Below are positions 28,666 to 48,210 of a DNA stretch of 64,000 bases, piece by piece. Each line of letters opens with the position of its first letter. Position 1 is the first letter of the stretch. The translations under genes and the position numbers were made by a program. The notes below the pieces were generated by a model that worked only from the letters and a program-made list of their open reading frames with translations, was not told where the DNA came from and searched no databases. Origin of the DNA: Spirosoma foliorum (lineage in GTDB: Bacteria > Bacteroidota > Bacteroidia > Cytophagales > Spirosomataceae); assembly GCF_014117325.1 (NCBI RefSeq), contig NZ_CP059732.1, forward strand, positions 3,237,001-3,301,000, written 5' to 3'.

Positions 28666-29560
28666 GCTGGCCGGTGTGGGTGCTCAGGCAGCTTCATTTG
28701 TCAAACTAGCCCGTCAGTATGCAAATGGAATGCCCGTCTGGATTACGGAAACGGGTTACGATATCAATCAGGGAAGCCCATTCCATGCGCTGTCTACTGG
28801 CAGGAAGACCGCTCTGGAAACGCAGGCCGACTGGATTCTGCGAACCGCTTTATTGTTCAGTCGGGTTGGTATTGATCGTGTATTTTTCTTTCAGGCCTAC
28901 GACGATAATCCAGCCAATCCGGTTCAGTTTAGTTCGATGGGTTTACTGAATACGGATAAAACCCGCAAACCCGCTGCGGATTATATATACCAGGCAATGA
29001 ACCTATTGGGCGATTATCGCTATAAAGAGTCGCTTAAACCCGTTGGCGGCCCCTCCGATCTACTCATTGATCGTTACGAACTAAATGGCCGTTCGTCTTA
29101 TGTACTCATGATACCTGATGAGCGAGATCGAACAGATACCTATACGTTAGCGATTCCGAAGGGCGATACCGTACAAATTTGTACACCAACTGCTGGTCGC
29201 GATCAGATGACCCGAAGGATACAGGTAAGTCAAACAGGCACCATACGATTAAGCGTCAGTGAAACGCCAGTCTTTGTCGTACCGGTATCAATTAGTGCTC
29301 CCGATCTAAGCACCTTACAGTTTGTCTCGGCTCCATCAACAAATTCCGTAGATTTACTGGTAGAGAATAACAGTCTGAGTCCAGTAGAAATTAGTGTTTA
29401 CAACAGCACAGGCCAACGGTTCAGACAAGTAAGTTTGCCAAAGTCAGGGCGTATCTTTCGTACGCAACTCGATTTAAGGCAATTACCAAAAGGTAATTAT
29501 CTGCTGGCGGTCCAGCAGGGGAAGGCAAGGGTAGTCAGAAAATGGGTTAAAGCCCAGTAG
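28607..29560 (+). pseudogene. secreted glycoside hydrolase, C-terminal part with T9SS type A sorting domain
   Basis: Continuation of the preceding gene in the +1 frame. The true sequence resumes near the G7 run as GGKRGAAPEL. WITETGYD (Glu codon at 28748) supplies the probable nucleophile and RVFFFQAYDD the next barrel strand. A small beta domain follows. The last 75 or so residues (LLVENNSLSPVEISVYN through LPKGNYLLAVQQGK) form a type A T9SS sorting domain. Repaired, the protein would be about 780 residues. The ATG at 28607 lies inside the upstream frame and is probably not used. Confidence 0.83.
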
Positions 29561-29615: not shown

Positions 29616-31055
29616 ATGAGTAATACAAAAAAGGCAATGAACGGGGGTAAGTGGATCACCATTTCCACTGTTATTTCAACCCTGTTTCAATTCGTGCAGG
29701 TCGCCATACTCGCTCGCGTACTGGCTCCGTCTGATTTTGGCATTGTCAGTATCAGCAATTTGATTATTGCGTTTTTTACGGTCTTTGCCAATCTCGGTTT
29801 TTCGAATTCGATCATCTACAAGCAGGAAAGCGACCCAAACGTTTTATCAACGTTGTATTACCTAAATCTGCTGATTGGCTTATTCATCTTTATCGTCATT
29901 CATATCAGTACCCCGTTCATTATATCGTTTTATCACGAGCCTAAACTAGACCATGTACTAAACTTATCTTCTTACTATTTCGTGATTGCTTACTTTGGCC
30001 AGATCTACATGTTCTTGCTGGAAAAAGAGCTTCGTTTCAAATCTGTTGCCATTATTGACATTGGTGGAACCGTAATTGGATCGGCGGTTACGATAACGCT
30101 TGCCTATAACGGCTACCATGAACTGTCGCTTATTATTGGGTCGTTAGTGATGCAGACCATAAAATCTGCGCTACAGATTACATTCGGGCGTCAGTTTTTC
30201 AAGCCGAGGTTATTCTTTAATTTGGGTAACATCCAGGAACACCTCCGTTTTGGCCTCTTCGGCATGGGCGATGGCTTTTTAGGCTTCGTACAAACGAATG
30301 TCGACAACATTTTTCTCGGGGGTATGTTAGGCGTCAAAATGCTTGGCTACTACACCATTGCGTATCAGTTGTGCGTCTTCCCGATCATGAAACTCAACCC
30401 GATCATTTTGCAGGTTGCCTACCCAATACTGGCCAAGATGAAGGAAAACACCGCCGACCTGAAAAAGTCGTACCTGAAGATTCTGGATTTCATTAGCTAT
30501 TGTAACCTGCCGCTTTTGGCGGGCCTATTCATTACGGCCGATGGTGTTGTCCCCTTAATTTATGGTCCTGGCTGGGATCAAACGGCCGAGCTAATTCGCA
30601 TTTTCGTCTTTGTTGGAATTTTCATTTGCCTGAGCCACCCTTTGTATACAATTGCCTTCACCAAGGGAAAGCCTAACCTGCTCTTCTACCTCAACTTAGG
30701 TACATTAATCGTCAAAATTCCACTCGTCTATTTCTTTGGAACTCGGTGGGGCGTAACGGGTATAGCCAGTGCGTTTATGCTAACCACTTTTCTTAATATG
30801 CTCGTCAACTTTGGTATGGTGCATTACCTGATTGGCGATTTCATAGGCGAATTCCTGAAAAACATAGCGAAACCCGTTACGTTTTGCCTGGTGATGGTGG
30901 GTATCATTAGCCTGTACAAATCATTTGTTGGTTATACAGGCTTAGTCAACACTATGGTAGAAATCGCCTTGGGTGGGGTTGTTTATGCCGTTTTCACATT
31001 AGCGTATAAGCTTTCATTCTCTGAATTAAAAGCCTATCGACAGGGGCTCATGTAA
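29616..31055 (+). CDS. Wzx-like polysaccharide flippase
   Basis: A 479-residue integral membrane protein with about fourteen hydrophobic helices of the polysaccharide-flippase (MATE/MOP) superfamily. N-terminal motifs include GGKWITISTVISTLFQ, VLAPSDFGIVSI and the FSNSIIYKQ loop that is common in the group. It moves lipid-linked sugar repeats across the inner membrane for the Wzy enzymes. Only one copy is seen here despite two Wzy genes. It follows the glycosidase gene by 55 bases. Confidence 0.9.
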   Translation: MSNTKKAMNGGKWITISTVISTLFQFVQVAILARVLAPSDFGIVSISNLIIAFFTVFANLGFSNSIIYKQESDPNVLSTLYYLNLLIGLFIFIVIHISTPFIISFYHEPKLDHVLNLSSYYFVIAYFGQIYMFLLEKELRFKSVAIIDIGGTVIGSAVTITLAYNGYHELSLIIGSLVMQTIKSALQITFGRQFFKPRLFFNLGNIQEHLRFGLFGMGDGFLGFVQTNVDNIFLGGMLGVKMLGYYTIAYQLCVFPIMKLNPIILQVAYPILAKMKENTADLKKSYLKILDFISYCNLPLLAGLFITADGVVPLIYGPGWDQTAELIRIFVFVGIFICLSHPLYTIAFTKGKPNLLFYLNLGTLIVKIPLVYFFGTRWGVTGIASAFMLTTFLNMLVNFGMVHYLIGDFIGEFLKNIAKPVTFCLVMVGIISLYKSFVGYTGLVNTMVEIALGGVVYAVFTLAYKLSFSELKAYRQGLM

Positions 31056-31497: not shown

Positions 31498-34065
31498 ATG
31501 AACTGGCAACTTTTTACTCAACCAACCCCCAACGAAGCCTATAATTTCTCCTTTAAAAAGAGCGATAAACGACTAATCAGAATACTCATTTCGGTTGGTA
31601 TATTGTTTATTGTAGGATTCCTTTGGGTGTATCTTCAGCCGAGCAATCGAGGCTACTCCTGGCTGTTTGCTTTACTGACTATATCGGTATCTTTCAAATT
31701 GCTGCGCTTGTTGCACGAGTGGTATCATTATTGGAACGTTGTTCCCTCAACTCCTCCGAAAGCCACAAGAACCTGGAGCGTTGACATCATGACGACGTTC
31801 TGTGCAGGCGAGCCCTACGAGATGATACTGAACTCTCTTCAAGCCATTCAGGCAATTCCGTACCCTCACACGACTTATTTGTGCGATGAGGCCGATGATC
31901 CTTATCTGCGGCAGGTTTGCGCCGAAATGGGAGTTCGGCACGTTACGCGTACCGATAAGAAGGATGCCAAGGCCGGTAACATTAACAATGCCCTCAAACA
32001 AGCTACGGGCGAGATCTGTGTTATTCTGGACCCCGACCATGTAGCAGTGCCTGACTTTCTGGATCACGTTCTCCCCTACTTCGAAGATCCTACTATTGGC
32101 TTTGTACAGTGCGTACAGGCTTATTATAATTACCGGGAAAGCCTGGTTGCGTTTGGGGCTGCCGAGCAGACCTACACATTTTATGGGCCAATGATGACCT
32201 GCATGGGAAACTATGGAACCGCGCAGGCTATTGGAGCCAATTGTACCTTCCGACGGGAAGCACTCGATTCGATTGGTGGTCACGCTGCCGGACTCTCCGA
32301 AGACATGCACACCGCCATGCAATTGCACGGCAAAGGCTGGGCGTCGGTTTATGTACCGCTGCCCCTATCATACGGCTTAGTACCATCGACTTTATCGGCC
32401 TATTATAAGCAACAACTCAAATGGGCACGCGGAACGTTTGAACTACTTGTGACTACGTATCCAAAAGTATTTAGTCAATTGTCGTGGCGGCAACGACTGC
32501 ATTACCTGACAATGCCTTTATATTACTTACTGGGTATTGTTCAATTGATTGACCTGCTCATTCCGATCATTTCGCTGGTCACGATGAGGCTTCCGCTGAA
32601 GCTGGACCTATTGGTATTCGGGACGGCCTATTTACCGCTTCTGGTCACGGCTTTTCTGATCCGGCAATATGCGCAACGCTGGCTCATCGAAAAACATGAA
32701 GCAGGATTTCATACGCTTGGCGGTGTACTAAGTAGCGGTACCTGGTGGGTTTATACTTTGGGGCTTATTTACACCATTTTCCGAATAGATGTCCCTTACC
32801 TGCCAACCCCAAAGCGCGACCAGCCGCGCAATAACTTCATTCTCTGCCTACCCAACCTGCTGATATTGTTGCTAACTGTGGGCGCTATTGGCTATAGCAT
32901 CTATCACTATGGGCGATTTGCCGTGAGCAATATCTATTCGGAACTGATGATCACATTCGCTATTCTGAATGGCTATATTTTGAGTCTCAATGTGTTGATC
33001 GGGCAGGAGAAAGTATTGGGAATGGTAAAAAACTGGATTACCAAAATCTCGTTTCAGCGGCCAATCGTGTGGCCTCTTCGTATTGCTATCTGGCAAATGC
33101 GATACGGTTTGTATAGCTGGATACGCCTTTCGGCCATACCGCTATTTGGTGTGGTCGTGATTTTAACAACGGGTTTAGTAGCGTATACCAGTCGCAAAAA
33201 AACGTCAACGCTTCCTCACGAAGTTCGCTTTGCCACTACACAGCCTTTCTATTATGGTCTGGAAACAAGCGGCCAACCAACAGAACGAACAGCTACCTCA
33301 AAACCCGTAGTGCTGCCCATTCAGGTAATTTCGCCCCAGCATCTGGCCTGGTCTGTTAATCCTACCGGTAAACAAGCCATTGCTGACCCAAATCTGTCAA
33401 CCATTTTAAATAAATTACCCCTTCTCTACCTGGAGCCTGCACTTATCGACACATCGGCTCATAAACAACGGTCAGAGACGGAGTTACAAGCCTTTTTGAG
33501 CAACCTTAAAGAAGGCCGTTATAACACCGATTTACAAAAACTGGTTGGTGCTATAAAACGGTACAAAGAGCCGGTGTTGCTCAGTTTCGCACCAGCCTTT
33601 GACGATACAACGCGGGCATGGGGCACAAAGCAGGAAAGCACGTTAGTACGCTACCGGCAAGCATGGCAGTACATGGTCAATTTTTTACAGAAACAAGAGG
33701 TAACCAATGTGATCTGGGTTTGGTGCCCTACGCAGCCGTCCACAATCGTAAACCATTATCCGGGCACCAGTTACGTAGATTGGCTTGGGCTCGAGGTCAT
33801 CAACAATCCAGATCTGGACGAAGACCACCAAAACCATTCGTTCGCGGCTTTATATCAACTGGCCCACAACACGATTCGCCTGCATTTAGACTATAACATC
33901 CGCCTGAAGCCAATTCTGATTACCCATTTTGGTGATGCCCAGCCCAACCCCACCGAAAATACATGGGTACGAGATGCTCTGGCAATCATAGACGAACGTT
34001 ATCCAGAAATTCGGGGGGTTGTTCTGAACCCACAGCAAGCGCGTGCCGTTCAAGACGCCTATTAG
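31498..34065 (+). CDS. cellulose-synthase-like glycosyltransferase fused to a catalytically dead GH26-like domain
   Basis: 855 residues. Two membrane helices (about 26-46, 52-70) precede a processive GT2 domain (90-320) with the full set: Asp130, DPD 178-180, SED 267-269 and QQLKW 305-309. More helices follow (about 340-560), as in cellulose and mannan synthases. From about 600 the protein carries a GH26-like (beta-mannanase) barrel: VTNVIWVWCP, YPGTSYVDWLGLE and KPILITHFG align with the family. The acid/base motif HE.N reads PAFD (Glu to Ala700), and the nucleophile in ITEFG is His810. Both glutamates are gone, so hydrolysis is unlikely and glycan binding or guiding is more likely. It probably makes a beta-linked polymer. 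Confidence 0.87.
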   Translation: MNWQLFTQPTPNEAYNFSFKKSDKRLIRILISVGILFIVGFLWVYLQPSNRGYSWLFALLTISVSFKLLRLLHEWYHYWNVVPSTPPKATRTWSVDIMTTFCAGEPYEMILNSLQAIQAIPYPHTTYLCDEADDPYLRQVCAEMGVRHVTRTDKKDAKAGNINNALKQATGEICVILDPDHVAVPDFLDHVLPYFEDPTIGFVQCVQAYYNYRESLVAFGAAEQTYTFYGPMMTCMGNYGTAQAIGANCTFRREALDSIGGHAAGLSEDMHTAMQLHGKGWASVYVPLPLSYGLVPSTLSAYYKQQLKWARGTFELLVTTYPKVFSQLSWRQRLHYLTMPLYYLLGIVQLIDLLIPIISLVTMRLPLKLDLLVFGTAYLPLLVTAFLIRQYAQRWLIEKHEAGFHTLGGVLSSGTWWVYTLGLIYTIFRIDVPYLPTPKRDQPRNNFILCLPNLLILLLTVGAIGYSIYHYGRFAVSNIYSELMITFAILNGYILSLNVLIGQEKVLGMVKNWITKISFQRPIVWPLRIAIWQMRYGLYSWIRLSAIPLFGVVVILTTGLVAYTSRKKTSTLPHEVRFATTQPFYYGLETSGQPTERTATSKPVVLPIQVISPQHLAWSVNPTGKQAIADPNLSTILNKLPLLYLEPALIDTSAHKQRSETELQAFLSNLKEGRYNTDLQKLVGAIKRYKEPVLLSFAPAFDDTTRAWGTKQESTLVRYRQAWQYMVNFLQKQEVTNVIWVWCPTQPSTIVNHYPGTSYVDWLGLEVINNPDLDEDHQNHSFAALYQLAHNTIRLHLDYNIRLKPILITHFGDAQPNPTENTWVRDALAIIDERYPEIRGVVLNPQQARAVQDAY

Positions 34066-34304: not shown

Positions 34305-37300
34305 CTAAGCGTTATCCAGCGCTCGCTGTAAGGCCTCAGCAAATGCTTTATCGTTTGGCGGCAAAAGCATTAACTCGTGATCGCCGGGAACATTGTGCAC
34401 ACGAACGCCTTTCGTCGCATATTTTTTCCATCCCAGGTACTTATTATCGTCAACAAAGTAAAGCCGTACCTGCGCTTTAAACAGATCCACGATGCCATCA
34501 TAGGGCTTCATGGTATACTTCTCAAAGGCGCTTTCATGCTTTTCAATGATTTGCTCAAACAAGTCAAGACCTTCTTTCGGCTTTGGTTTTTCACGCAGAC
34601 CCGTTGCTTTCAGCAATCGGTCAACCTGCCGCTCAACGTACACCTGCTGGTAGCGTAGCGTAGCGACTGGCTGACGCACCAACGAACTCGTAAACCAAAT
34701 TAATTTGGGAAACTGGCGAAGAATTTTCCGTTGCAACCAGTTCATCATTGATCGGTTCGTATCCGACTCCTGAGCATTGGTATCGAACATGGCAAGCATT
34801 TTCACTTCCTTACCCATTGCCTTCAGTTGGCGGGCCATTTCGAGAGCAACATACCCCCCAAACGAATAGCCAGCAATGGCATACGGCCCCTCTGGATTTT
34901 GGTCGATTACCTCACTAACGTAAAAGGCAGCAATTTCGCCAATGTCGTCCAGCGGTTCATCGATACCATCTAACCCTCGAGCCTGCAATCCGTAGATAGG
35001 TTGCTGAGGGTCCATATAGCTCAGTAAGCTACTAAAATTCAACAGATTAAGCCCAATACCATGAATAATATAGATCGGTACTTTATTGCCTTCTGGCTGA
35101 ATGGGAACCAGTGATTTCCAATTGGTTGGCTTGCCGTCGGCCTCAACTACCTGCGCCAGTTTTCGAATCGTTGGGTACGTTAATAAGGTCGATAGCGGCA
35201 GACGTTTTCCGGTCTCTTTTTCGAGTTGGATCATTACCTGCACGGCAATCATCGAGTGCCCGCCTAACTCAAAAAAGTCAGCATCTACGCCAATTTTTTC
35301 GAGGCCAAGTGCCTCCTTCCAGATCGCTGTAATCAATTTTTCGGCCTCCGTAACGGGTTCTGCTTCGCTGCCCTTAGCCGTCAACATACTGGCAGGTTTC
35401 GGTAGTGCATTACGGTCAACCTTGCCGTTCGGCGTGATAGGCAATTGTGGCAGACTGACAAAATCAGTCGGAACCATATATACCGGCAACACATCCTGCA
35501 GTTTGGTTCGCCATATGAGCACCTGGCTCATAAAGGCAGCGTTGGTCAGTGGCGGGTTGTTTACGATATACGCAATTAATCGTTGATCGCCAGCCCGTTC
35601 TTCACGAGCCACAACTACCGCTTCACTTACACCCGGCTGTGTGATTAAGGCATGTTCTATTTCGCCCAACTCAATCCGATAGCCTCTAACTTTTACCTGC
35701 TGGTCAATACGGCCCAGACAATGGATTTCGCCATCAGGCATAAACTTTCCCAAATCGCCCGTTCGGTACATCATCCGTCTGGCCGATTTCTCAAATGGAT
35801 TGGGCACAAACTTATCTTTCGTCAGATCGGGTCGATTAAGATATCCCCGCGCTACGCCTTCACCCGCGAGATAAATTTCACCAATACTCCCTTCCGGCAA
35901 AGGGTTCAGATGTTCGTCGAGAATATATACCTGGGTATTGTGTATCGGTCGACCAATCGTAATGATTTCATCACTGGCTAGAATCTGCTTTCCAGTTGAA
36001 TAAATCGTCGTTTCCGTCGGGCCGTACATATTCCAGAGCGTGCCACAGCGTGCGGTTAGCTTTTGCGCCAAATCCTTCGACATGGGTTCGCCACAGCACA
36101 GAATTTTTAGCGGCAACCGCTGTTCCCAACCAGCAGCCAGCATCATTTTATACGTGACCGGCGTAGCCTGAATAATGCTGACCTGGTAAGCTGGGACGGC
36201 TTCCAGCAAGGCCCGGCCATCTTTCGTCATTTCAGCATCGGCCAATACGAGGGTAGCCCCAACCAATAAAGGCAGGAACAACTCAAGGCCCGCAATATCA
36301 AACGAAACGGTCGTTACCGCCAGCAAGGCGTCCTCTTTCGTGATACCCGGCCAGGCAATCATGCTGTACAGCAGATTAACCAGATTATGGTGCTCAATCA
36401 ATACACCTTTCGGCCGCCCTGTTGAACCAGATGTATAGAGGATATACGCCAGATCGCTTCCAGTAACGGGCACGTCGGGGGCTTTCTTCGAATACGTATC
36501 CAGCTTAGCCAGTACCTCTTCAATCAGAATTACGGTTGTCTGATTGGCAGTTTGGCCAGCTGCATGGTATTTTTTGGCGGTAATGAGTACACTGGCCGAT
36601 GAATCGGCCAACATAAACTCAACCCGATCGTGTGGATAATCCGGATCGATTGGTACATAGGCGGCACCAGCTTTTAGAACCGCTAAGAGCGTAATTACCA
36701 GCTCCGGCGATCGATCCAGCACAACGCCCACTACAGCTTTCTGCTTCGTACCTCCCAGGCCAGTTTGCAGGATGGCGTGAGCTATCTGATTGGCCCGTTC
36801 ATTTAGTTCGCGATAGGTTAAGGTTTGGCCTTTCGTAAAAACCAATGCTGTTTTATCCGGATAGGTTGCTGCTGTTTTATCGAGCAATGCCTGCAACGAA
36901 CTGGTACGCGGATAATCTGCCTGCGTATTATTCCAGAGCGTTAATTTCCGAATCTGTTCAGACTGATCGGCGAGTAAAATATCTTCAATGAGTATGGACG
37001 GATTGTCGACTACTGCTTCCAGTACGTTTTCAAATTCGCCCATCATCCGGTCAATCGTACTCTCCTTGAACAGTTGCGTATTATACGCCCATTCCAGAAC
37101 CAATTCAGCCGTTGCAGACGACCCGCTGATGTTAAGGAATAAATCTACGGCTCCGTATTCGCGGGGATTACTGATTAACTGATAATCAAGCCCATGAAAG
37201 TTAACCCCATCATCCAACCCCATGTCCACGTTAAAAATAACGGGGACGAGCGGTATACGAGAAGGGTCTCGGACAATGGATATTTTCTTCAGCAGACTGC

Positions 37301-38357
37301 CAAAAGTTAGCTGCTGATGCTCATACGCATCGAGTACATCTTCTTTACGCTGTTTTAAAAACGAAAGGAAGCTAAGCTCCGGACGGGGAAAACTTCGCAG
37401 AGGTAGTAGGTTGACGCAGTGACCAACCAGACCCAAATAACCCGTAGCCGACTGCCCTGACGTTGGGAGACCAACAACAATATCGTCCTGTCCTGTCAGT
37501 CGATGTAGAAAAACCTCGAAGCTGGCCAATAAGGTAGTCACAAAGCTACAACCCGCTTTGGCACCCATTTTTTTGACCGCCAGCCCCAGTTTACCACTCA
37601 TTGGATAATCTCGACGGGCAATCTTATAGGTACGTAACGTAGGTCGGGCAAAGTCAGTCGGCAAATCCAGTACGGGCACCGATTCTTTGTACTGGTTGAC
37701 CCAAAATTTCTCTACCTGCTGATACGTTCCACTTGCTAAAAATTGAAGCTGATCGGCTGCATACTGACTATAGGCGGGAGCTTCCTGCAACGCTGGCGAC
37801 TTATGCTGCGTATAGGCAGAATATAGCTCGCTCAAGTCCTGGAGCATAATGCCCAGCGACCAACCATCACACACGATATGATGGGCTGTAATCGTGAAAT
37901 GATGCGCGGTATCGGACAGTTTAATCAGGCCAACTTTTGCCAAAGGACCATTGAGGAGGTCGAACAGATACAAGGCATCCTGCCTTACATATTCCTCAAT
38001 GATTTGCTCCTGTTCGGCAGGCGTTTTGTCGGAACAATCCTGATAAACCAGATCAATAAAAAGCTGGTCGAATACACAGATTTGCCTCCCATCGGCACTG
38101 AAAGCCGAATGTAGCGACTCGTGACGTTGTACTAATGCGTGCCAGGCTTGCTCCAGCGCCGGTTTATCCAGCAAGCCATTAAATCGCAATGAAACCGACT
38201 CATTAAATGATCGGCTGGCATCAGCGCCACCTAATTGGCAGGTTGCCCAGATTTCCGTTTGGGGTTCGGTAGCCGGGGCCAGTCGCACAATAGCTGGCCC
38301 ATCAAACGGATCAAAGTCAACAGCAATCAGATTTACGTTTGTAATGCTTTCCGCCAT
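34305..38357 (-). CDS. non-ribosomal peptide synthetase, C-A-PCP-TE
   Basis: About 1350 residues from the ATG at 38357, five bases after the stop of the upstream PKS-NRPS gene; the frame runs on to a TTG at 38366. The condensation domain (about 30-460) has intact HHIVCDGWS (His159-160, Asp164). The adenylation domain (480-990) has YTSGSTGRPKG, YGPTETT, YRTGDLG and NGKVDRNALP. The carrier domain has GGHS with Ser1035. A type I thioesterase closes the protein, with GYSFGG (Ser1165), Asp1192 and His1327. By eye the pocket reads D-I-L-A-L-C-M-I-Y-K and I predict no substrate. It should join its amino acid to the upstream intermediate and release the product. Confidence 0.95.
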   Translation of the reverse strand: MAESITNVNLIAVDFDPFDGPAIVRLAPATEPQTEIWATCQLGGADASRSFNESVSLRFNGLLDKPALEQAWHALVQRHESLHSAFSADGRQICVFDQLFIDLVYQDCSDKTPAEQEQIIEEYVRQDALYLFDLLNGPLAKVGLIKLSDTAHHFTITAHHIVCDGWSLGIMLQDLSELYSAYTQHKSPALQEAPAYSQYAADQLQFLASGTYQQVEKFWVNQYKESVPVLDLPTDFARPTLRTYKIARRDYPMSGKLGLAVKKMGAKAGCSFVTTLLASFEVFLHRLTGQDDIVVGLPTSGQSATGYLGLVGHCVNLLPLRSFPRPELSFLSFLKQRKEDVLDAYEHQQLTFGSLLKKISIVRDPSRIPLVPVIFNVDMGLDDGVNFHGLDYQLISNPREYGAVDLFLNISGSSATAELVLEWAYNTQLFKESTIDRMMGEFENVLEAVVDNPSILIEDILLADQSEQIRKLTLWNNTQADYPRTSSLQALLDKTAATYPDKTALVFTKGQTLTYRELNERANQIAHAILQTGLGGTKQKAVVGVVLDRSPELVITLLAVLKAGAAYVPIDPDYPHDRVEFMLADSSASVLITAKKYHAAGQTANQTTVILIEEVLAKLDTYSKKAPDVPVTGSDLAYILYTSGSTGRPKGVLIEHHNLVNLLYSMIAWPGITKEDALLAVTTVSFDIAGLELFLPLLVGATLVLADAEMTKDGRALLEAVPAYQVSIIQATPVTYKMMLAAGWEQRLPLKILCCGEPMSKDLAQKLTARCGTLWNMYGPTETTIYSTGKQILASDEIITIGRPIHNTQVYILDEHLNPLPEGSIGEIYLAGEGVARGYLNRPDLTKDKFVPNPFEKSARRMMYRTGDLGKFMPDGEIHCLGRIDQQVKVRGYRIELGEIEHALITQPGVSEAVVVAREERAGDQRLIAYIVNNPPLTNAAFMSQVLIWRTKLQDVLPVYMVPTDFVSLPQLPITPNGKVDRNALPKPASMLTAKGSEAEPVTEAEKLITAIWKEALGLEKIGVDADFFELGGHSMIAVQVMIQLEKETGKRLPLSTLLTYPTIRKLAQVVEADGKPTNWKSLVPIQPEGNKVPIYIIHGIGLNLLNFSSLLSYMDPQQPIYGLQARGLDGIDEPLDDIGEIAAFYVSEVIDQNPEGPYAIAGYSFGGYVALEMARQLKAMGKEVKMLAMFDTNAQESDTNRSMMNWLQRKILRQFPKLIWFTSSLVRQPVATLRYQQVYVERQVDRLLKATGLREKPKPKEGLDLFEQIIEKHESAFEKYTMKPYDGIVDLFKAQVRLYFVDDNKYLGWKKYATKGVRVHNVPGDHELMLLPPNDKAFAEALQRALDNA

Positions 38358-38362
38358 CCTAG

Positions 38363-41300
38363 TCAATTTAATTCAACCTGGAGGTATTTTCCGGGCTGAT
38401 CTGGATTTGGGACAAACCAAGCGGGATTCCCTTCCCGATCCCGGCCCAATCGGGCACCAGGAGCAGGTGGGGTATCCTTAGCCAAACTTGCACCAACTTG
38501 TCCAGTACTGGTTATTGGATTTGAATCTTTTTTGAAAAAACCGGCATCTATCAGTTCCCGAACGCTTTCGGTAAACCGGCGAATTATTATCTCTAATTCC
38601 TGATCAGTATGGGCTTCTGTCAGGAAGCACGGAAATCCATCCCAAATATGAATTCCCTTTTCACGCATTAAAGTAAACAACAACTCCCCATATACTATAT
38701 CTTCCTTAAACTTTATTTTCCAAAGTGAGCCGAAATGAACTACATTAATAGGTAGCGTATACTCTTTTAGTACCGCGTTAAGACCATCGGCGAGTCGCTG
38801 CGTCTTTTGGGTTAACGCTTGTTGCAAACCAGGTCCAACTTCCTTCATATGAGTTAAGGACGCTTTGGCAGCAGCTAACACCAATGGATGCCGAACAAAT
38901 GTTCCGGCAAAGTAAGTCACACCCACTTCAGGTACCGAGTGATCGCCATATTGCCAGAACCCGCCATCAAGCGCGTCCATAAATTCCCGTTTACCTGCAA
39001 TGACACCAATGGGCAAGCCGGCCCCAACCACTTTGCCGTAGGAACCTAAATCTGCTTTAATTCCAAACAGTGCCTGAGCCCCACCCGGATGCGTCCGGAA
39101 TCCAGTAATTACTTCATCAAAGATTAGCGCGGTACCTGACTTTTCGGTGATGGCCCGCACTGCCTTCAGAAACTCAATAGGAACAAATTCAGGCCGGCGG
39201 CTTTGCACGGGTTCTACCAGAACAGCTGCTAATTCATGTGCCCGTTCCCGGATGATCTGAAGACTTTCTTCCGTCCCATAGTCCAAAATCAGCATGTTCT
39301 GGACTGCTTCGGGCATAATACCCGGTGCCGCCGGAAATGACTTCAGTTTTTTAGTTCCGCGTACAAGTACTTCGTCGACAATGCCGTGGTAGGAACCCGA
39401 AAAGGCAACAATTAATGATCGACCTGTAACGGTTCGGGCAATTCGCATGGCACCTAATACAGCTTCGGAACCAGTGTTGCATAAAGCCGACCGATCAGTA
39501 GCAGTAAGCTCGCAAATCAACTGGCAAACTTCACCAGCGAGTTCATGTTGCGGCCCCACCTCGAAGCCAAGCTCAATTTGTTCATGTAGTGCTTCCTTGA
39601 CCCAATCGGGTTGATAGCCAAACATATTTGAGCCAAAGCCATTCAGCGCATCAATGTATTCGTTGCCATCAATATCCCAGAGTCGGCTGCCTTTTGAACG
39701 ATTGACAACCAACGGGTAGACAATTTCTTTCGTTAGTGGCCGGAAACCCGAAACCACCCGAGGATCGGCCATTTGAGCCCGATGCTCCTGTGCGTATGCT
39801 TTACTCTTGCCTGTTTTCTGGATGTACCGTTCTGTAAATTGTTGTAAGAAGTCCTGCTGTTTGGTACTTAATTCCGAAGCCTGTCGATCGATGCGGGCCG
39901 TGGCACCAAACGGCTTTTTCAGCTCAACCTTTTCTTCAGGAGTCAGGTCAGGGGTCGAGTCGGGTTTATGATGGCCATTCGAACTCCCATTGGTAGCACC
40001 ATTAGCAGGTGTCAGGATTGACTTTATAGTAGCGGGGGCTACAGAAGGGGCAACGGGAACTGCCACGCTGCCACCCTGGAGTAATTCAAGCTGTTTCGCC
40101 AATAATTGTAATTGCTGCGCGATCAGATCCAGGGCAGGATTGTGCGGAGCTGGGTTCTGTACATATTGAACAGCAACAGGTTGGCTCACCGCCGTTGGAA
40201 TTGGCGCTGATACGGGAGCTGGTGGTTGAACCTCAGCAGGCAAAGCCTGATCGAGGTAGTTGGCCAGTTGTTCGGGCGATGTATATTCACTAGTTAATTG
40301 CCTGAACGTAATTGGCAGGCCAAATTCTTTTTTGAGCGTCAAGGCTACTTGTGTCAGTAGCAATGAATCGAAGCCAATCTCCAGGAAGCTTGTATCAGGT
40401 GCGACACTATCCATTTCAATACCGGATGCGTCTTCGAGGAGTTGGTTGATTTTGTTGAGTAGGGTATTTTTTCTCATAGTAACCGCTGGAGCTTGCGTTT
40501 CTGGTGGGTTAGGTATTGATAACGATTGATTAGAGGAAGCAAAATGCGTACTTTCCAACGGGTTGGTTGGTTTAACGACTGGGTCGACCCAGCAGCGTTT
40601 TCGGTTAAATGCATAGGTCGGTAATACGACGCGGCTGCGTTGCTGCCCAGCATAAAAAGCCTTCCAGTCAGGTGTAAGCCCAGCCACATATAGTTGACCT
40701 AAGGTCGTTAAAACAGCCTGACAGGTTTTAGTCCAATCAGGTTGATTCGCTAAACCAGCCAAAACTGTTACTGGCTTTTTAGCTGCCTGCTGACGAGCCA
40801 ACGTGGCCGTTACGTGACCTGGCCCAACCTCTAAAAAGAGTGGGTTATCGAACGTAAGGAGCGTATTGAGGGCATCCGCAAAACGTACGGTAGTCCGAAG
40901 ATGGGTTGCCCAATAAGTAGGATCGGTCGCTTGTGCATCAGTCAACCAAGTACCACTCACGGTCGAGACGACTGGCTTTTGCGGACGATTTAGCGAAACA
41001 CCTGCTACAATCGCCTTAAACTCATCCACAATTGGGTCCATCATGGCGGAGTGAAAAGCGTGACTCGTTAACAGCGGTTGATTAGGAATTTCCCGTTCGT
41101 CGAGCAATCTCGCAAAATCGGCAATATCTTCATCGGGACCAGCCACAACACAGAGTGTATAGCTATTAATGGCGGCCATCGAGATTGTTGGCGGCATGAT
41201 TGCCAGTACTGCATCCGCTGCCAGTCGAACAGAAAGCATACTGCCCCTTGGCAATTCGCTCACCATCCGTCCACGAGCAGCAATTAAGGTTACCGCATCC

Positions 41301-44300
41301 GAAAGCGAGAACACACCCGCCAGATGAGCCGCAACGAATTCGCCAATACTATGCCCACAAAAAACAGAGGGTTCTATTCCCCAGCTCATCCATAACTGAG
41401 CCAAAGCATATTCTGTAACAAAGAGCGCGGGTTGGGTATAGCGCGTATTTTTCAACCGCTGTTCAGCCTCCGAACTCAGACTTTCGGGGTACATCACCTC
41501 ACGAATGTCCGTCTCCAGATATGGGTTCAGCAAGGCCGCACAACTGTCTACAGCCTGTCGGAATACAGCCTCGTTTTCGTACAAATCCCGGCCCATGTTC
41601 AGGTATTGCGCTCCTTGGCCCGGAAATAGGAAAACAACTTCATCGGGACGTTCAGTCGTTGCTTTTATTCCCGATGATTTCGAACGGTCTACTAATTTAT
41701 CCCGCAATTCAGTTGGTGTAGAGGCTACTACAAACCGACGATGCTTAAAATCAGCACGTGTTGTTTGCAAGGTAAACGCTACATCTGTCAGATTCAGAGT
41801 CGGTTGCTGATCGAGTTCAGTGACAAGGTTTTGCGCGTAGGCATCTAAACTGGCGGGTGTTTTTGCCGACCAGCTAATTAGCTGAGCAGGCCGACCGCTA
41901 TCCGACACAGGAGCTTCCTGTTGAAACTCTTCCAGTACTACATGCACGTTTGTTCCCCCAACACCAAACGAGCTCACACCTGCCCGGCGTGGATTCGCAT
42001 CGGCTCCATTAATTTCCCAATTAGCAAGTTTGGTATTGACAAAAAATGGGCTGTTTTCGAAATCTATGGCGGGGTTAGGTGCGTCGTAATTAATGGACGG
42101 CGGGAGTTGCTTATGATATAAAGCCAGGGTCGTTTTAATCAGCCCGGCCACGCCTGCCGCCTGAGTTAAATGGCCCATATTACTTTTGATGGACCCAATG
42201 GCACAGTATTGCTTTTCAGCCTGTTCACCAAATGCCTGTATCAACCCATCAATTTCAATCGGATCACCTAGCGGAGTGGCTGTTCCGTGGGCTTCGACAT
42301 AACTGATGGTGGCAGGATCAATATGAGCATCAGCAATAGCCATAGCGATAGCACCTGCCTGCCCTTCGGCGCTTGGCGCGGTAAAGCTGCCTTTGCCTCC
42401 GCCATCATTATTAACTCCTACTCCTTTAATAACCGCATAAATTGTATCGCCGTCACGCAACGCAGCGTCTACATTTTTCAACAAAACAACCCCTGCTCCA
42501 TCGCTAAACACAGTTCCCTGGGCGTCCGCATCAAACGAACGACAATGGCCATCCCGGCTTAGCATTGCGCCTTCCTGATACAAATGCCCACTGTTAAGCG
42601 GGGTGGTGATACTAGCCCCACCAGCCAATGCCAACTCACATTGCCCGTTTCGAATGCTCTGAACTGCCTGCGAAATAGCCAGTAACGATGTCGAGCAAGC
42701 CGAATATACGCTGACGGCTGGGCCTTTCAGGTCTAACTGATAGGCTGTTCGGGAAGCGATATAATCTTTTTCGTTCAGGGTCATCACCTGAAACGCGCCC
42801 ACCTGGTCAACCAGGTTTTGATGACCAAGTACATTGTTCAGGTAATACGTATTGTTTCCGCAACCAGCAAATACCCCCACACGACCATCGAAATGCTGGG
42901 GCAGATAGCCTGTTTGTTCGAGCGTTTCCCAAGCTATCTCCAAAAAGATACGCTGCTGGGGGTCCATGAGCTGAGCCACATTGGGCGTCAGTCCAAAAAA
43001 CTGGGCATCAAACTGGTCGGCCTGATCAATGACTCCTCTTGCTTTTACGTAAAGTGGATCATTTTTAAGGCCAGCAGGTATACTGGCATCTAGCTCACTA
43101 TCAGTAAAAAAGCGGGTGGTTTCCTTACCTTGCTTCAGCAGCTCCCAAAGAGCCTCAATCGTATTTGCTCCGGGGAAACGACCTGCCATGCCAATGACTG
43201 CCACATCGTCTCGTTGATTAGCCGACGAGTCTCTGTTAGCTTTTGAGACATCCTTCGTCAGTCGATTGGGTTGTTCTGTTTTTTGCGGCTGTAAGTAAGT
43301 AACAATGCCGGCAATCGTTGGATATTGGTATAGTTTGGTAACGGGTAACGTTTGTTGCTGCTGTTTTAACTGGGCAACGGTTTTCTGAGCTAGCAGCGAA
43401 TTTCCGCCAAGCTCAAAGAAATTATCATCCAGACCAACTTTATCGATTTGAAGCAACTCAGCCCACAACCCTGCGATTTTCCGTTCCAGGTCGGTTCGGG
43501 GCTTTTGGTAGGGCACTGCCAGATCTGGTCGCTTTTGTTCGGGCCCTGGTAGCTGCTTCTTATCGACCTTGCCACTGCTGGTTTTAGGAAGCTCATCTAA
43601 CCAAACAAACGCAGAGGGCATCATGTAGTCGGGCAGTTGCTGTTCCAATTGAGTTCGAATACTCGCTTTGGATACTTGGGCATCAATGGCTACCAGATAA
43701 GCCACTAAGCGTTTCTGTCCGTCATTTCCTTCACGAGCAACAACTACAGCCTGTTTAACACCTGTAAGTTGATTGATAATAACTTCAACTTCGCCCAATT
43801 CAACCCGATGCCCACGAATTTTGACCTGATCATCACGACGTCCCAGAAACTCGATTGTCCCGTCGGGCAACAAACGACCAAGATCGCCCGTGCGATAAAT
43901 CCGCATTTTTTCTTGCTGCGGAGTACTTAACTCAATGAATTTTTCGCTGGTTAGTGCCGGTTGATTCAGATAGCCTTCAGCCAGGCAAGCCCCGCCAAAA
44001 CAGAGTTCTCCCACATCGCCATCAGGCAGAATGGTCAGCGAATCATCAACTACAAATACGCTAACGTTATCAATCACCTGACCAATAGTCGGCAGGGGTG
44101 GCCAGTTGGCAGAGTCACCCGTTAAAGCCAATTGCGTGATTACGTGGCATTCCGTAGGACCATATTGGTTAAATAAAACGCAATCGGGCAATGCTGCAAA
44201 GAATTGAGCAACTTGAGGGGTAATCTTCAACTGCTCCCCAGCCGTCATGATTTCGCGCAACTGTGCCGGAAATAATTGGGTACTTACGGCAGCTTCAGCC

Positions 44301-45064
44301 AGGTATTGGAGCGCGACAAACGGCAGAAAGAGTCGATTGATTGCCTGTTCGTCAATGAAGCGTAATAATGCGTTCAGATCCAGACGAAGCGTTTCATCGA
44401 TCAGTATCAGTGTGCCACCCGTACTTAGTGTGGCAAAAATCTCCTGAAATGAAACGTCGAAACTTAACGGAGCCAATTGAAGTGTCCGAGTGCCCAAACC
44501 CGCCGTTGACTGTTTCGATTGCCACTGCAATAGGTTCATGAGTGGGCTATGCCCCATGCAAACACCTTTTGGCTTACCCGTTGAGCCAGAGGTGTATAGC
44601 ACATAAGCCATGCTGGCTTGTGGGCTCACTACTTGTTTGGGCTGAGCATAGGCCCGATCCGACAGAATTACCTGAAATCCTAACTGGCTAAAAAGCGGTT
44701 CATCCTGCGCCGTCGTCAAACAGGTTTGAAGACCAGAATCGGCCTTAATTTGCTGTAGCCGATGCTCCGGATAGGCAGGATCGAGCGGTAAATAGGCTTT
44801 CCCAGATTTCAGGATCGCTAATACGCTCACAATCATTTCCAGATTGCGGGTCGTGCTTACCCCGATATGTTCGGCCTCTGGATCGGTATCTAGAATAGCC
44901 TGAGCGAGTGCATCTGCCCGATCGTTCAACTGACGATAAGTGAGCTCACTATCCTTAAACACCAGTGCCAAATGCTCTGGATTGTCAAGTACAACTTGCT
45001 CGACAAGCTGATGAACAAACTGCGGGGAAAGGATGCCCCGGCTTATGTCTTCATAGACACCCAT
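38363..45064 (-). CDS. hybrid NRPS-PKS, A-PCP-KS-AT-ACP-aminotransferase
   Basis: 2233 residues. An adenylation domain (about 20-505; YTSGSTGKPKG, YGPTECH, YRTGDLG, SSGKVDKKQLP) starts the chain with no condensation domain before it. PCP follows with GGNS (Ser556). The ketosynthase (620-1045) has Cys790 in SVYSACSTS, His926 and His965. The acyltransferase (1143-1440) has GHSIGE (Ser1239) and HAFH, the malonyl-type signature. There is no room for a reductase. The ACP has GFDS (Ser1567). A Pro/Ala-rich linker (1607-1700) leads to a class III aminotransferase (1715-2190) with PLP Lys2011. The expected product is a beta-amino acid built on an amino-acid starter. The order recalls mycosubtilin MycA and microcystin McyE. 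Confidence 0.95.
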   Translation of the reverse strand: MGVYEDISRGILSPQFVHQLVEQVVLDNPEHLALVFKDSELTYRQLNDRADALAQAILDTDPEAEHIGVSTTRNLEMIVSVLAILKSGKAYLPLDPAYPEHRLQQIKADSGLQTCLTTAQDEPLFSQLGFQVILSDRAYAQPKQVVSPQASMAYVLYTSGSTGKPKGVCMGHSPLMNLLQWQSKQSTAGLGTRTLQLAPLSFDVSFQEIFATLSTGGTLILIDETLRLDLNALLRFIDEQAINRLFLPFVALQYLAEAAVSTQLFPAQLREIMTAGEQLKITPQVAQFFAALPDCVLFNQYGPTECHVITQLALTGDSANWPPLPTIGQVIDNVSVFVVDDSLTILPDGDVGELCFGGACLAEGYLNQPALTSEKFIELSTPQQEKMRIYRTGDLGRLLPDGTIEFLGRRDDQVKIRGHRVELGEVEVIINQLTGVKQAVVVAREGNDGQKRLVAYLVAIDAQVSKASIRTQLEQQLPDYMMPSAFVWLDELPKTSSGKVDKKQLPGPEQKRPDLAVPYQKPRTDLERKIAGLWAELLQIDKVGLDDNFFELGGNSLLAQKTVAQLKQQQQTLPVTKLYQYPTIAGIVTYLQPQKTEQPNRLTKDVSKANRDSSANQRDDVAVIGMAGRFPGANTIEALWELLKQGKETTRFFTDSELDASIPAGLKNDPLYVKARGVIDQADQFDAQFFGLTPNVAQLMDPQQRIFLEIAWETLEQTGYLPQHFDGRVGVFAGCGNNTYYLNNVLGHQNLVDQVGAFQVMTLNEKDYIASRTAYQLDLKGPAVSVYSACSTSLLAISQAVQSIRNGQCELALAGGASITTPLNSGHLYQEGAMLSRDGHCRSFDADAQGTVFSDGAGVVLLKNVDAALRDGDTIYAVIKGVGVNNDGGGKGSFTAPSAEGQAGAIAMAIADAHIDPATISYVEAHGTATPLGDPIEIDGLIQAFGEQAEKQYCAIGSIKSNMGHLTQAAGVAGLIKTTLALYHKQLPPSINYDAPNPAIDFENSPFFVNTKLANWEINGADANPRRAGVSSFGVGGTNVHVVLEEFQQEAPVSDSGRPAQLISWSAKTPASLDAYAQNLVTELDQQPTLNLTDVAFTLQTTRADFKHRRFVVASTPTELRDKLVDRSKSSGIKATTERPDEVVFLFPGQGAQYLNMGRDLYENEAVFRQAVDSCAALLNPYLETDIREVMYPESLSSEAEQRLKNTRYTQPALFVTEYALAQLWMSWGIEPSVFCGHSIGEFVAAHLAGVFSLSDAVTLIAARGRMVSELPRGSMLSVRLAADAVLAIMPPTISMAAINSYTLCVVAGPDEDIADFARLLDEREIPNQPLLTSHAFHSAMMDPIVDEFKAIVAGVSLNRPQKPVVSTVSGTWLTDAQATDPTYWATHLRTTVRFADALNTLLTFDNPLFLEVGPGHVTATLARQQAAKKPVTVLAGLANQPDWTKTCQAVLTTLGQLYVAGLTPDWKAFYAGQQRSRVVLPTYAFNRKRCWVDPVVKPTNPLESTHFASSNQSLSIPNPPETQAPAVTMRKNTLLNKINQLLEDASGIEMDSVAPDTSFLEIGFDSLLLTQVALTLKKEFGLPITFRQLTSEYTSPEQLANYLDQALPAEVQPPAPVSAPIPTAVSQPVAVQYVQNPAPHNPALDLIAQQLQLLAKQLELLQGGSVAVPVAPSVAPATIKSILTPANGATNGSSNGHHKPDSTPDLTPEEKVELKKPFGATARIDRQASELSTKQQDFLQQFTERYIQKTGKSKAYAQEHRAQMADPRVVSGFRPLTKEIVYPLVVNRSKGSRLWDIDGNEYIDALNGFGSNMFGYQPDWVKEALHEQIELGFEVGPQHELAGEVCQLICELTATDRSALCNTGSEAVLGAMRIARTVTGRSLIVAFSGSYHGIVDEVLVRGTKKLKSFPAAPGIMPEAVQNMLILDYGTEESLQIIRERAHELAAVLVEPVQSRRPEFVPIEFLKAVRAITEKSGTALIFDEVITGFRTHPGGAQALFGIKADLGSYGKVVGAGLPIGVIAGKREFMDALDGGFWQYGDHSVPEVGVTYFAGTFVRHPLVLAAAKASLTHMKEVGPGLQQALTQKTQRLADGLNAVLKEYTLPINVVHFGSLWKIKFKEDIVYGELLFTLMREKGIHIWDGFPCFLTEAHTDQELEIIIRRFTESVRELIDAGFFKKDSNPITSTGQVGASLAKDTPPAPGARLGRDREGNPAWFVPNPDQPGKYLQVELN

Positions 45065-45171: not shown

Positions 45172-47361
45172 TCAAAGCATATTCCGTTGGGGTTGTAGTG
45201 AGGTGGCCGGACTAACAGGCTTTGGCATGACATCGGCCCTACCCGGCACCTCGACGTAATTCCCTTCCACACGGTTCAATACCGTAAATATGGGTTGGTT
45301 CGTTACGCGTACATACATACTTAACAGTTGCTTTTCGGCCCTGGCCCAGGGACTACTTGCATCAATGATTAATAAGGATAAAGCACTGCTTTTGAGCAGA
45401 TAAACCGGAATCTGATTATTAATCAGAGCGGGGAGTTCAAGAATAATTCGGTCAAATTGTGAACCATCGAAACCCTGACTATAATCAACCAGGTAATCGA
45501 CGCCCGTAACGTTCATAAAATCGGGACGAATGGTGTACGGGAAATATGTTACCCCTTGTTTAAACTCCCGTTGCTCTTTTCCGGTCACCCGTGGATAGCA
45601 ATAGGCTACCTTCTGGTCAGCGTTTTCATAGAGGTCAACCAATCCATTAGCCACCCAGGTTTTACCTTGTTTCGATCGGATGCTAAAGAGGGTAATTATG
45701 GGTGGGTATGGCTTAGTGGTGTTTTGGGTCACCTCAACATTGATAGCGTTGAAGAGCTGTTCAAACATACTCCGCGATGCCATTGAAGCCCTTGTAAATA
45801 CCTGTGGTTTTTTGACCGTTGGGAACAAAGCGGCAACAGGCATCCCAATCATGGATTCGGCCTGTTCGGGCGACTGGATGCGCTTGTCTAACCAGAAACG
45901 CAGAGCTGTCAGCAATAGGGCAATGAAAAGTCCAACCCCAAAGCCGATAGCCACCATTTGTATACGCTTGGATGGCAACGGAACTAACGGAAAATCAGGA
46001 GCATCTAACACCTCCAATGTTCCACCGATCGATACATCCTGACGACGCGTTTTCGACTGATCGACATTCTGTATCAGGTCCAGGTATTCTTTTTCTGCAA
46101 TGGCTAACGTCCGATTTAATTGACGGAGTTGCGTCCCTAACGGCCCATACTCATTGGTCTTGGCCGCATAGTCATCCATTCGTTTCTTATAGAGTTCTAA
46201 TCGGGCTGACGATTCTTCGTATTCCAGCGACTTCATTAAACGGTCATTGGCCATTGTTTGCGCCGGAATGGCATCATTCGAATTGGCTGCCGCATCATAT
46301 TTTTGCGCGCTGACTTTTAAGTCTTCTGAAGCTTGTTTGACACTGGCCTGCAATTGAGCGATTACCGTTTGCGGCTGGCCGTAGGCCCGGGCATTGGCTA
46401 ATTTATTCTCGGCATCGCTTAATTTTTTCTGTTTTTCGGTCAAATCGTTATTGGCAGCACGAATACTCCCCTGTTGACCCATACGCCCATTTAAGGCATC
46501 GAGAGCTGCTTTAGCGGCATTTTTCCGCATTAACTCCTGATTATATTCCCCATTTAAAGCCTCGCGCGATGAAGCAACATTTCTGGCTTCTTCGTCATAA
46601 TCCAGTACCTGATGCTTTTCACTGAAGGCCCGCAAATCAGCCTCTGCCTGCGCCAGTTTTGTCTTTGCTTTCTCTAACTTGGCTTCGTAATAGCCAATAA
46701 CCGAATTGGTTTCGGAGGTTTTGAGCGTCGAATAACGTTTATTCAGGTATTCAATGGCATAATGCAATGTTCGCTGAGATACTGCCGGATCGTCTGATTC
46801 GTATTCCATCAGCAGCACGTCATTCGTATTCTTACGGGCAGAACCTTTTATGTTTTCGCCCAGATGGGCTATTGAATAATACGAATCTGATTTCAGCAGT
46901 AAGGTTTTTATTGGATTATCAGATGGTGTTTTTGCTAAGCTATCTATCGTATTGTGCAAGAGTGTCGAGTCTGCCGCAATGTAATATAAGTTTTCCCATT
47001 CGGGTGTGATCGCATTGTGCAATTTCTGGAACCCTGCATAGCCTAAGACCAGCGAATCGGGACGCCGAAGCTGAAGGTGATCTGTAAGCAGAGAAACCCC
47101 GATTTGAAGGAGGGTTTCCCGAGAGTTCAACGTAGTCAGGATATTGTCGAATGCGCTGGCTGACCGATCCTGATAGGCATTATTTCGATCTGACAACAGC
47201 GAATAGCGGGAAACCAGCCCTGTATAAAGAGTAGCCTGCGATTTATACACTTTGGCTTCGTTCCGGGTAGCAAAAAAAGCTGCTATCGCAGTTACCGCCG
47301 GAATGAGAATGAACCAGAGTATATGCTGTTTCAGTAAGCGCAAAAAGACCTCGACTGACAT
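45172..47361 (-). CDS. Wzz/GumC-like chain-length protein with degenerate tyrosine-kinase domain
   Basis: 729 residues. An N-terminal helix (about 15-30) and a second helix (about 470-495, IGFGVGLFIALLLTALRFWL) enclose a long periplasmic coiled-coil domain. The C-terminal domain (530-729) resembles a BY-kinase but its Walker A reads RSKQGKTW (Lys567) instead of PGEGKS/T, the Walker B region reads IILELP rather than an Asp-ending strand, and there is no tyrosine-rich tail. It probably does not phosphorylate tyrosine. It follows the half-TolC gene by nine bases. The paralogue at 1-917 shares its N-terminal pattern. The NRPS-PKS gene starts 107 bases downstream on the same strand. Confidence 0.88.
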   Translation of the reverse strand: MSVEVFLRLLKQHILWFILIPAVTAIAAFFATRNEAKVYKSQATLYTGLVSRYSLLSDRNNAYQDRSASAFDNILTTLNSRETLLQIGVSLLTDHLQLRRPDSLVLGYAGFQKLHNAITPEWENLYYIAADSTLLHNTIDSLAKTPSDNPIKTLLLKSDSYYSIAHLGENIKGSARKNTNDVLLMEYESDDPAVSQRTLHYAIEYLNKRYSTLKTSETNSVIGYYEAKLEKAKTKLAQAEADLRAFSEKHQVLDYDEEARNVASSREALNGEYNQELMRKNAAKAALDALNGRMGQQGSIRAANNDLTEKQKKLSDAENKLANARAYGQPQTVIAQLQASVKQASEDLKVSAQKYDAAANSNDAIPAQTMANDRLMKSLEYEESSARLELYKKRMDDYAAKTNEYGPLGTQLRQLNRTLAIAEKEYLDLIQNVDQSKTRRQDVSIGGTLEVLDAPDFPLVPLPSKRIQMVAIGFGVGLFIALLLTALRFWLDKRIQSPEQAESMIGMPVAALFPTVKKPQVFTRASMASRSMFEQLFNAINVEVTQNTTKPYPPIITLFSIRSKQGKTWVANGLVDLYENADQKVAYCYPRVTGKEQREFKQGVTYFPYTIRPDFMNVTGVDYLVDYSQGFDGSQFDRIILELPALINNQIPVYLLKSSALSLLIIDASSPWARAEKQLLSMYVRVTNQPIFTVLNRVEGNYVEVPGRADVMPKPVSPATSLQPQRNML

Positions 47362-47370
47362 ACAATTCGT

Positions 47371-48210
47371 TTAGTTACGTTTTAATCGTTGGATAGGCAT
47401 TCCTACTAATGCTTCAAAATAGCGAACATTTTTCAAAAAACTGCCTTTCGCTTGCTCTGAGGCCGTTTTAGCCTGTACATAACGGCTGGTTATCGACGCC
47501 ATCAGATCGGCAGTTATCTGACCTTTCTGAATTTCAACTTCCCCAACACGAAGGGCAGTCAATGAAGCCTGCTCGTCAACCAACAAAATTTTCAGGAGTT
47601 GCTGCGTCGTAATCATATCCTGATAAATACCGATCAGATCACGTTTCAGCGACAACTCAACCGTTTCTCTCTGATGTACAGCTGCTTTATAATTAGCCTG
47701 CGCCTGACGTATCTGGTGTTTTCGGCCAAACAACTCATACAGTGGAAACCGAACATCAATGCCTACCCGGTAACCGTTGGCAATTTGCCCAAGGGTACTC
47801 CCCTGTGCTGTTGACGTTCCCCCTTGTTGTAGAGCACCTGTCGAGACCAACACCTGATTTCCCGTTGAATAATTGGCCGCTCCCGCAACATTCTGCAGAA
47901 TTTGCAATTTGGCTATTTCATACCCCTCATTCAGTGAATTGGCTACTTCATTCTGATACTTCACTAAAGGTGAGTGCGTTACAGCTATTTTCATTAAATC
48001 ATCAAACGGCAGTAACTGACCAGCTATGTCCTGATTTATATCGAGATATAACGTATCGTCAGCAAAACCAGACGATGCTCCAAACGAAACAAGCCCACGG
48101 GCTCCGCGATTTTGCCCTGAACAGAGCGATATAGTAAGAACTCCAATCAGGCAAAAAAGACTAAACCGGCAAATAAGTATTGTGTTTAATCGAAATAAAC
48201 GGAATCTCAT
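47371..48210 (-). CDS. half-length TolC-like outer membrane protein
   Basis: 279 residues with a signal peptide (MRFRLFRLNTILICRFSLFCLIG, long) and a single OEP-like unit (about 55-275): LMKIAVTHSPLVKYQNE, RFPLYELFGRKHQIRQAQ and SFLKNVRYFEALVGM. A normal TolC has two such units and about 450 residues. It is a paralogue of the protein at 917-1666 (LYNILGRKNLVKMAE against LYELFGRKHQIRQAQ). The gene sits nine bases before the Wzz-like gene. It could supply the outer-membrane exit for polysaccharide, as no Wza-like gene is visible. No promoter is clear. Confidence 0.78.
   Translation of the reverse strand: MRFRLFRLNTILICRFSLFCLIGVLTISLCSGQNRGARGLVSFGASSGFADDTLYLDINQDIAGQLLPFDDLMKIAVTHSPLVKYQNEVANSLNEGYEIAKLQILQNVAGAANYSTGNQVLVSTGALQQGGTSTAQGSTLGQIANGYRVGIDVRFPLYELFGRKHQIRQAQANYKAAVHQRETVELSLKRDLIGIYQDMITTQQLLKILLVDEQASLTALRVGEVEIQKGQITADLMASITSRYVQAKTASEQAKGSFLKNVRYFEALVGMPIQRLKRN

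Follow-up and report, generated by a model that had tools for sequence, protein, structure and literature searches.

A 64,000-nucleotide stretch of Spirosoma foliorum DNA (contig NZ_CP059732.1, positions 3,237,001 to 3,301,000; hereafter the window), part of an 8.85-Mb genome on one contig, encodes a compact two-gene assembly line made of a polyketide synthase (PKS) and a nonribosomal peptide synthetase (NRPS). The two-gene anatomy is intact and confirmed, and the PKS is strongly tied to a polysaccharide locus across the genus, which is the most interesting aspect of the system. It is tentatively proposed, with somewhat less than even confidence, that this is a dedicated line making a proline-derived beta,gamma-diamino acyl dipeptide that would serve the polysaccharide of the locus.

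Both reading frames are open over their whole length, the PKS as given in Table 1 and the NRPS from 38366 to 34305. The NRPS probably starts at the ATG at 38357 rather than at the TTG at 38366, 5 bases past the PKS stop codon TGA at 38365–38363, in agreement with the sequence-only reading of two minus-strand genes five bases apart. In the PKS, Pfam places an AMP-binding region (residues 23–366) with its C-terminal part (425–499), a PP-binding domain (529–591), ketosynthase (KS, 619–993), acyltransferase (AT, 1144–1463), a second PP-binding stretch and Aminotran_3 (1783–2140); the NRPS contains, in order, condensation (C), adenylation (A), PP-binding and thioesterase (TE) domains. This bears out the domain order proposed earlier, A, peptidyl carrier protein (PCP), KS, AT, acyl carrier protein (ACP) and aminotransferase (AMT), followed by C-A-PCP-TE. 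Motif reading assigns the carrier serines to Ser556 (PCP) and Ser1567 (ACP), the KS shows Cys790, EAHGT and KSNMGH, and Lys2011 is the pyridoxal phosphate (PLP) lysine of the AMT. The AT carries GHSIGE and HAFH, motifs that we take to mark the malonyl type, and no ketoreductase, dehydratase or enoylreductase family was found in the PKS by Pfam (E ≤ 0.001), consistent with the predicted single malonyl-type extension without reductase. Numbered from the ATG at 38357, the NRPS has HHIVCDG, the PCP Ser1035 and the TE residues Ser1165 and His1327, and Asp1192 is likely the third member of the triad. Thus the KS cysteine, PLP lysine and catalytic serines named from the letters are present by motif, while for the TE triad the serine and histidine stand and the aspartate is only a likely assignment. 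With KS-AT-ACP and a PLP aminotransferase in the same chain, the PKS is a hybrid of the MycA/McyE kind, and its partner, with catalytic motifs in C, A and PCP plus a TE, is a type I modular NRPS of one module, as had been read.

Among the 36 Spirosoma genomes in a set of 99 related genomes, the PKS occurs in 29 (matches of at least 60% identity, broken copies included); G035, which lacks a counted PKS, has a 56% standalone paralog instead. An ortholog of the Wzc-type copolymerase (at least 59% identity) is present in 28 of the 29 PKS-bearing genomes and in none of the seven others, and the unlinked Wzc paralogs of the genus reach at most 49%. In a chosen set of 40 Spirosomataceae PKS loci, which includes paralogs and other genera, the Wzc ortholog and a half-length TolC-type protein (half-TolC) stand on the PKS strand in 25. 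In 24 of these, Wzc and PKS are separated by −62 to 178 bp; the exception is L052, with 729 bp and a Wzc fragmented into several open reading frames (ORFs). An upstream GT2 glycosyltransferase gene was found in 23 of the 25, and PKS identity correlates with Wzc identity across 276 pairs drawn from 24 loci (r = 0.86). Downstream genes were read in 20 genomes, some of whose fetched stretches stop short of them: Wzx was present in 19 (including one in L156) and the 4'-phosphopantetheinyl transferase (PPTase) in 18 at 34–63% identity; at 45% identity or more, 16 genomes had Wzy_C and 13 the sugar transferase.

The substrates were predicted from A-domain code positions read against GrsA 234–397, verified letter for letter on 1amu; the amino acid denoted by each code is assumed throughout. 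The first A domain (A1) of the window reads DVQFMAQV, with I at position 331 (DVQFMAQVI), a position that is gapped for DVQ-type rows in the joint alignment, so that the I or V there comes from other code readings. This code is proline-like. The second A domain (A2) reads DILQLCMIY, a modified glycine code. Several relatives show textbook codes at the same places: proline (DVQFIAHVV) in L074, L225 and L082, the last with A-PCP on a separate ORF; valine (DALWIGGTF) in L080, also on a separate ORF; an aspartate-type code (DLTKIGHIG) in L068; and, at A2, glycine (DILQLGLIW) in L056 and L078. Seven standalone PKS paralogs (L058–L064) have the exact threonine code DFWNIGMVH at A1; these have no NRPS partner in the stretch fetched, and a GNAT acetyltransferase gene lies near L058 and L061, the two that were tested. 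Because the A1 code is proline-like and relatives carry proline, threonine, valine and aspartate codes, A1 is read as an amino-acid domain, not as an acyl ligase loading a fatty or aryl starter. The earlier prediction of an amino-acid starter is thereby well supported at the level of code residues; proline is the likely starter and the second residue is probably glycine or alanine. A PDB search with A1 gave no indication of its substrate.

Among the 25 Wzc-linked loci, A1 reads DVQFMAQV in 19, DAQFIGV(I/V)W in four and DVQYTGVIW in two, and A2 reads DILQLCMIY in 18 and otherwise in seven. When the NRPS was compared domain by domain in 12 loci, A2 identity to the window fell to 45–49% in five (L032, L043, L045, L049, L054), with a smaller drop in the C domain (53–61%) and in PCP-TE (56–61%). 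PKS and NRPS identities also correlate less closely (r = 0.79) than those of PKS and Wzc over the 276 pairs. Together, the A2 drop and the lower correlation fit an exchange of the second module. A methyltransferase lies between A and PCP in L045 and L055.

Table 1. Assembly line and polysaccharide genes of the window.
Feature	Coordinates	Strand	Remarks
Initiating bacterial sugar transferase (Bac_transf)	15019..16191	+	
GT2 glycosyltransferase	16170..17111	+	
Wzy_C polymerase/O-antigen ligase family	17242..18690	+	
GT1 glycosyltransferase	18687..19817	+	
GT1 glycosyltransferase	20190..21401	+	
Protein without Pfam match	24193..25146	-	homologs also in NRPS-free exopolysaccharide loci
PPTase	25260..26009	-	
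Wzx-type polysaccharide flippase	29616..31055	+	
CelA-like GT2 with GH26 match	31498..34065	+	in only part of related loci
NRPS gene, C-A(Gly-like)-PCP-TE	34305..38357	-	1350 aa from ATG 38357
PKS gene, A(Pro-like)-PCP-KS-AT(malonyl type)-ACP-AMT	38363..45064	-	2233 aa
Wzc/PslE-type polysaccharide copolymerase	45172..47361	-	107 bp upstream of PKS
Half-length TolC-type outer membrane efflux protein	47371..48210	-	279 aa, one OEP stretch
GT2 glycosyltransferase	48432..49625	-	first gene of conserved upstream block

By family match, an initiating transferase, flippase, polymerase, copolymerase and glycosyltransferases occur together in the window, so that the PKS-NRPS unit sits in a Wzx/Wzy-type exopolysaccharide locus with its own PPTase (Table 1). 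The polysaccharide setting had been recognized from the letters; the operon-like bond to Wzc, the other genes of the exopolysaccharide locus, the PPTase, the likely proline-type starter and the likely glycine-type second residue had not. The Wzc profile matches PslE best in the PDB, with Wzc next, and the half-TolC profile has no PDB sequence match. TolC proteins are usually about twice as long as this one, and a half-TolC of similar length adjoins Wzc in NRPS-free exopolysaccharide loci too. Such NRPS-free gene sets of similar make-up were found at L147–L152 and L154, four of them (L149–L152) in genomes without a PKS ortholog. Immediately next to this locus (window 1–3098 and upstream, L155) is another gene set of the exopolysaccharide type, which has a distant Wzc and a half-TolC of its own. 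At window 27229–29560 (plus strand), a secreted protein of the type IX secretion system (T9SS) type is spread over two ORFs that overlap in different frames; all 12 relatives examined have a single ORF of 777–800 aa, and the split is a frameshift or sequencing error.

The in-line class-III aminotransferase proposed earlier was borne out by Pfam (Aminotran_3) and by the PDB search: of the 60 sequences listed out of 603, only MycA chains (6kfu, 6kfm) match the AMT region. Its PLP lysine (alignment K318 = Lys2011) is invariant in nine diverse family members. A tree of 85 AMT domains (84 different) from the fetched loci, to which MycA and McyE themselves do not belong and for which the program warns of long branches, places the window family within a clade of 61 rows (support 100/99) spanning Bacteroidota, Pseudomonadota, Planctomycetota and Verrucomicrobiota. 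Outside this clade fall a group of 15 rows from cyanobacteria, Bacillota and others, a further two from cyanobacteria, and seven that are distant; the window AMT thus groups with neither Bacillota nor cyanobacteria.

The line had been said to look unusual, which is not supported for it as a single find: rarity is rejected by the 29 of 36 Spirosoma genomes and by relatives in Burkholderiales, Planctomycetota and other Bacteroidota. Full-length PKS relatives at 63–87% identity in many same-genus genomes show that the PKS is not a chance ORF. In a protein search with residues 1690–2233, the best 120 of at least 7883 matches among 8000 scored candidates were, the query aside, mostly full-length (~2200 aa) at 71–97% identity, under names that include Spirosoma, Larkinella, Hymenobacter, Fibrella and Rudanella, and the nearest among those listed is from Spirosoma litoris (97% over the searched region). 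The AMT profile matched 27 of 295 evenly drawn Bacteroidia genomes at 1e-120, 25 of them at 1e-230 or below, the window's own included. At least 80 loci lie in named genome contigs, with close relatives in Pedobacter, Mucilaginibacter, Winogradskyella, Pseudoxanthomonas, Xenophilus, Ideonella, Xylophilus and Pirellulaceae. No identical characterised cluster and no described product of this line was found in searches of papers (MIBiG not covered); the available text of PMC10482864 and PMC7272551 gives no more than antiSMASH T1PKS/NRPS calls for Spirosoma.

Outside the genus, 39 further rows were examined, namely 20 class-wide matches and 19 named loci (L068–L086); 38 are distinct, as L077 is L220, and 37 of these come from other families (the remaining one, L208, belongs to a different genus of Spirosomataceae). 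An NRPS partner was scored in 32 of the 39 rows, and a PPTase besides in 21, under score limits by which L082, with its C-A fused to the PKS, counts as a miss. Clear polysaccharide contexts were seen in Pedobacter-like loci, in Ideonella (L078) and in a Proteobacteria metagenome-assembled genome (MAG, L082) with a sugar transferase, a GT2 and a flippase near the line; no exopolysaccharide-type genes were found in the Winogradskyella and Mucilaginibacter loci examined. A universal polysaccharide link is rejected, and it looks as if PKS-NRPS-PPTase is a unit that was joined to polysaccharide loci more than once and is not always within them. Two further kinds of neighbour were noted. A Cupin_8 protein, possibly a tailoring hydroxylase, lies next to the line in different lineages (L162:252-1145, L207, L082:2495-4003), and Pycsar effector (PycTM) genes occur near it in Pedobacter and one Spirosomataceae genome (L069, L070, L085, L048).

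From the domains and codes we infer the following route. A1 would load a proline-type amino acid onto the first PCP, and the KS would condense it with malonyl supplied by the AT and ACP. The aminotransferase, through Lys2011, would convert the beta-ketone to an amine; the resulting beta,gamma-diamino acyl unit would, with a proline starter, be 3-amino-3-(pyrrolidin-2-yl)propanoyl. At the second module, the C domain would couple this unit to a small amino acid of the glycine or alanine type, after which the TE would release or transfer the product. Most conditional of all is the role of the product: it would serve, and may modify, the polysaccharide presumably made and exported by the neighbouring genes rather than act as a free antibiotic, most likely as a basic substituent or a co-secreted partner. 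A more specific form, in which the proline-derived diamino dipeptide is attached to the polymer and makes it basic, and the NRPS module is swapped in the manner of a serotype cassette, altering the decoration with the export genes unchanged, is suggested by the A2 shared by 18 and differing in seven of the 25 Wzc-linked loci and by the methyltransferase domain gained in L045; as a whole it is rather unlikely.

Several observations weigh against a role in the polysaccharide. The co-occurrence and correlation of PKS and Wzc are inflated by shared descent, G015 has a broken PKS and no Wzc ortholog, and G022 and G033, among the seven PKS-lacking genomes, are incomplete assemblies, the former holding a 62% NRPS piece. 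Of the 40 Spirosomataceae loci, 15, which are paralogs or come from other genera, have no adjacent Wzc, and in G019 (L160) the block from Wzx to the sugar transferase is missing. The PKS-NRPS(-PPTase) set often lies outside polysaccharide loci: by script, just 11 of the 38 distinct further loci have an exopolysaccharide-type gene nearby, L084 being counted on 17 bits alone, while the script, with its small labelled set, overlooked a Wzy_C protein found by Pfam in L077. No acyltransferase for attaching the product to sugar is among the annotated genes, and the TE could simply hydrolyse. A free secreted dipeptide of the beta,gamma-diamino kind, acting as antibiotic, signal or metal binder and encoded in the locus through shared regulation or export, is a serious possibility that still falls well below even. 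It would suit the TE with GxSxG and GxH in all 32 loci with an NRPS partner among the 40 Spirosomataceae loci (counted within the TE domain, as the broader pattern also matches the C domain), the many units in other settings and the TolC-type protein within the block. However, what is conserved around the line is a copolymerase, a flippase, a polymerase and glycosyltransferases, and the annotated genes include no resistance gene and, the half-TolC apart, no transporter for small molecules.

Shared descent could go further, one insertion by chance perhaps explaining all 28 linked same-genus cases without any functional tie. Such an account is improbable in view of the gaps below 180 bp in 24 of the 25 linked loci, the separate contexts in Pedobacter, Ideonella and the Proteobacteria MAG, and the genome G024 (L156), where PKS and adjoining Wzc are both broken and a second, intact PKS-NRPS copy lies elsewhere without Wzc. 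As to the residues, the starter or second residue may differ from the codes (a proline analogue; alanine or serine for glycine) with the logic otherwise unchanged. A1 departs from textbook proline at three of nine positions (M299, Q322 and I331 for I, H and V), a further point against the proposed proline-derived product; A2 likewise has C301, M322 and Y331 where textbook glycine has G, L and W, and the A1 pockets of some relatives differ clearly (DAQFIGVIW, DVQYTGVIW, DVQIFSQVV). Against these stand the textbook proline and glycine codes of relatives at the same positions, and a different residue is quite conceivable, if not favoured. If the product does modify the polysaccharide, non-sugar groups on bacterial surface polymers would be among the things that modular NRPS-PKS chemistry can build. 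In addition, the lines predicted to aminate the ketone beside an amino-acid starter make up a broad clade; such amination would be a simple route to vicinal diamines, and since starter and second residue are readable from sequence, the prediction is directly testable.

Among known systems, the mycosubtilin synthase MycA and its iturin/bacillomycin kin share the KS-AT-ACP followed by an in-line class-III aminotransferase, which in MycA aminates a beta-keto thioester. MycA uses a fatty-acid starter, in contrast to the amino-acid A-PCP of the window line, and the 61-row clade excludes the in-line AMTs of Bacillota, represented in the tree by genome loci other than MycA. The microcystin enzyme McyE and the cyanobacterial in-line AMT PKSs likewise have KS-AT-ACP-AMT and then C-A, but they take another starter and the cyanobacterial rows also lie outside the clade. 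PKS-NRPS units of the statine and dolaproine type join an amino acid to one malonate unit, as predicted here; they reduce the ketone to a hydroxyl, whereas the window line is predicted to transaminate it. TAN-1057, a Flexibacter dipeptide with a beta-amino acid, resembles the predicted product as a small Bacteroidota dipeptide of that kind. Its starter would be a guanidino acid, and it was set aside as the product because A1 looks like a proline domain; the available text of PMC9248904 merely names the compound. For the proposed tie to a polymer, a parallel is the O-polysaccharide of Flavobacterium psychrophilum, whose variable non-sugar acyl R-group is encoded in the same locus and is a 3,5-dihydroxyhexanoate derivative in one strain (PMC6519341); unlike at the window locus, the available text of that paper mentions no PKS-NRPS line for these R-groups. 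In biosynthetic type, the Spirosoma line belongs with the known in-line aminotransferase hybrids as a variant that has an amino-acid starter and a clade of its own.

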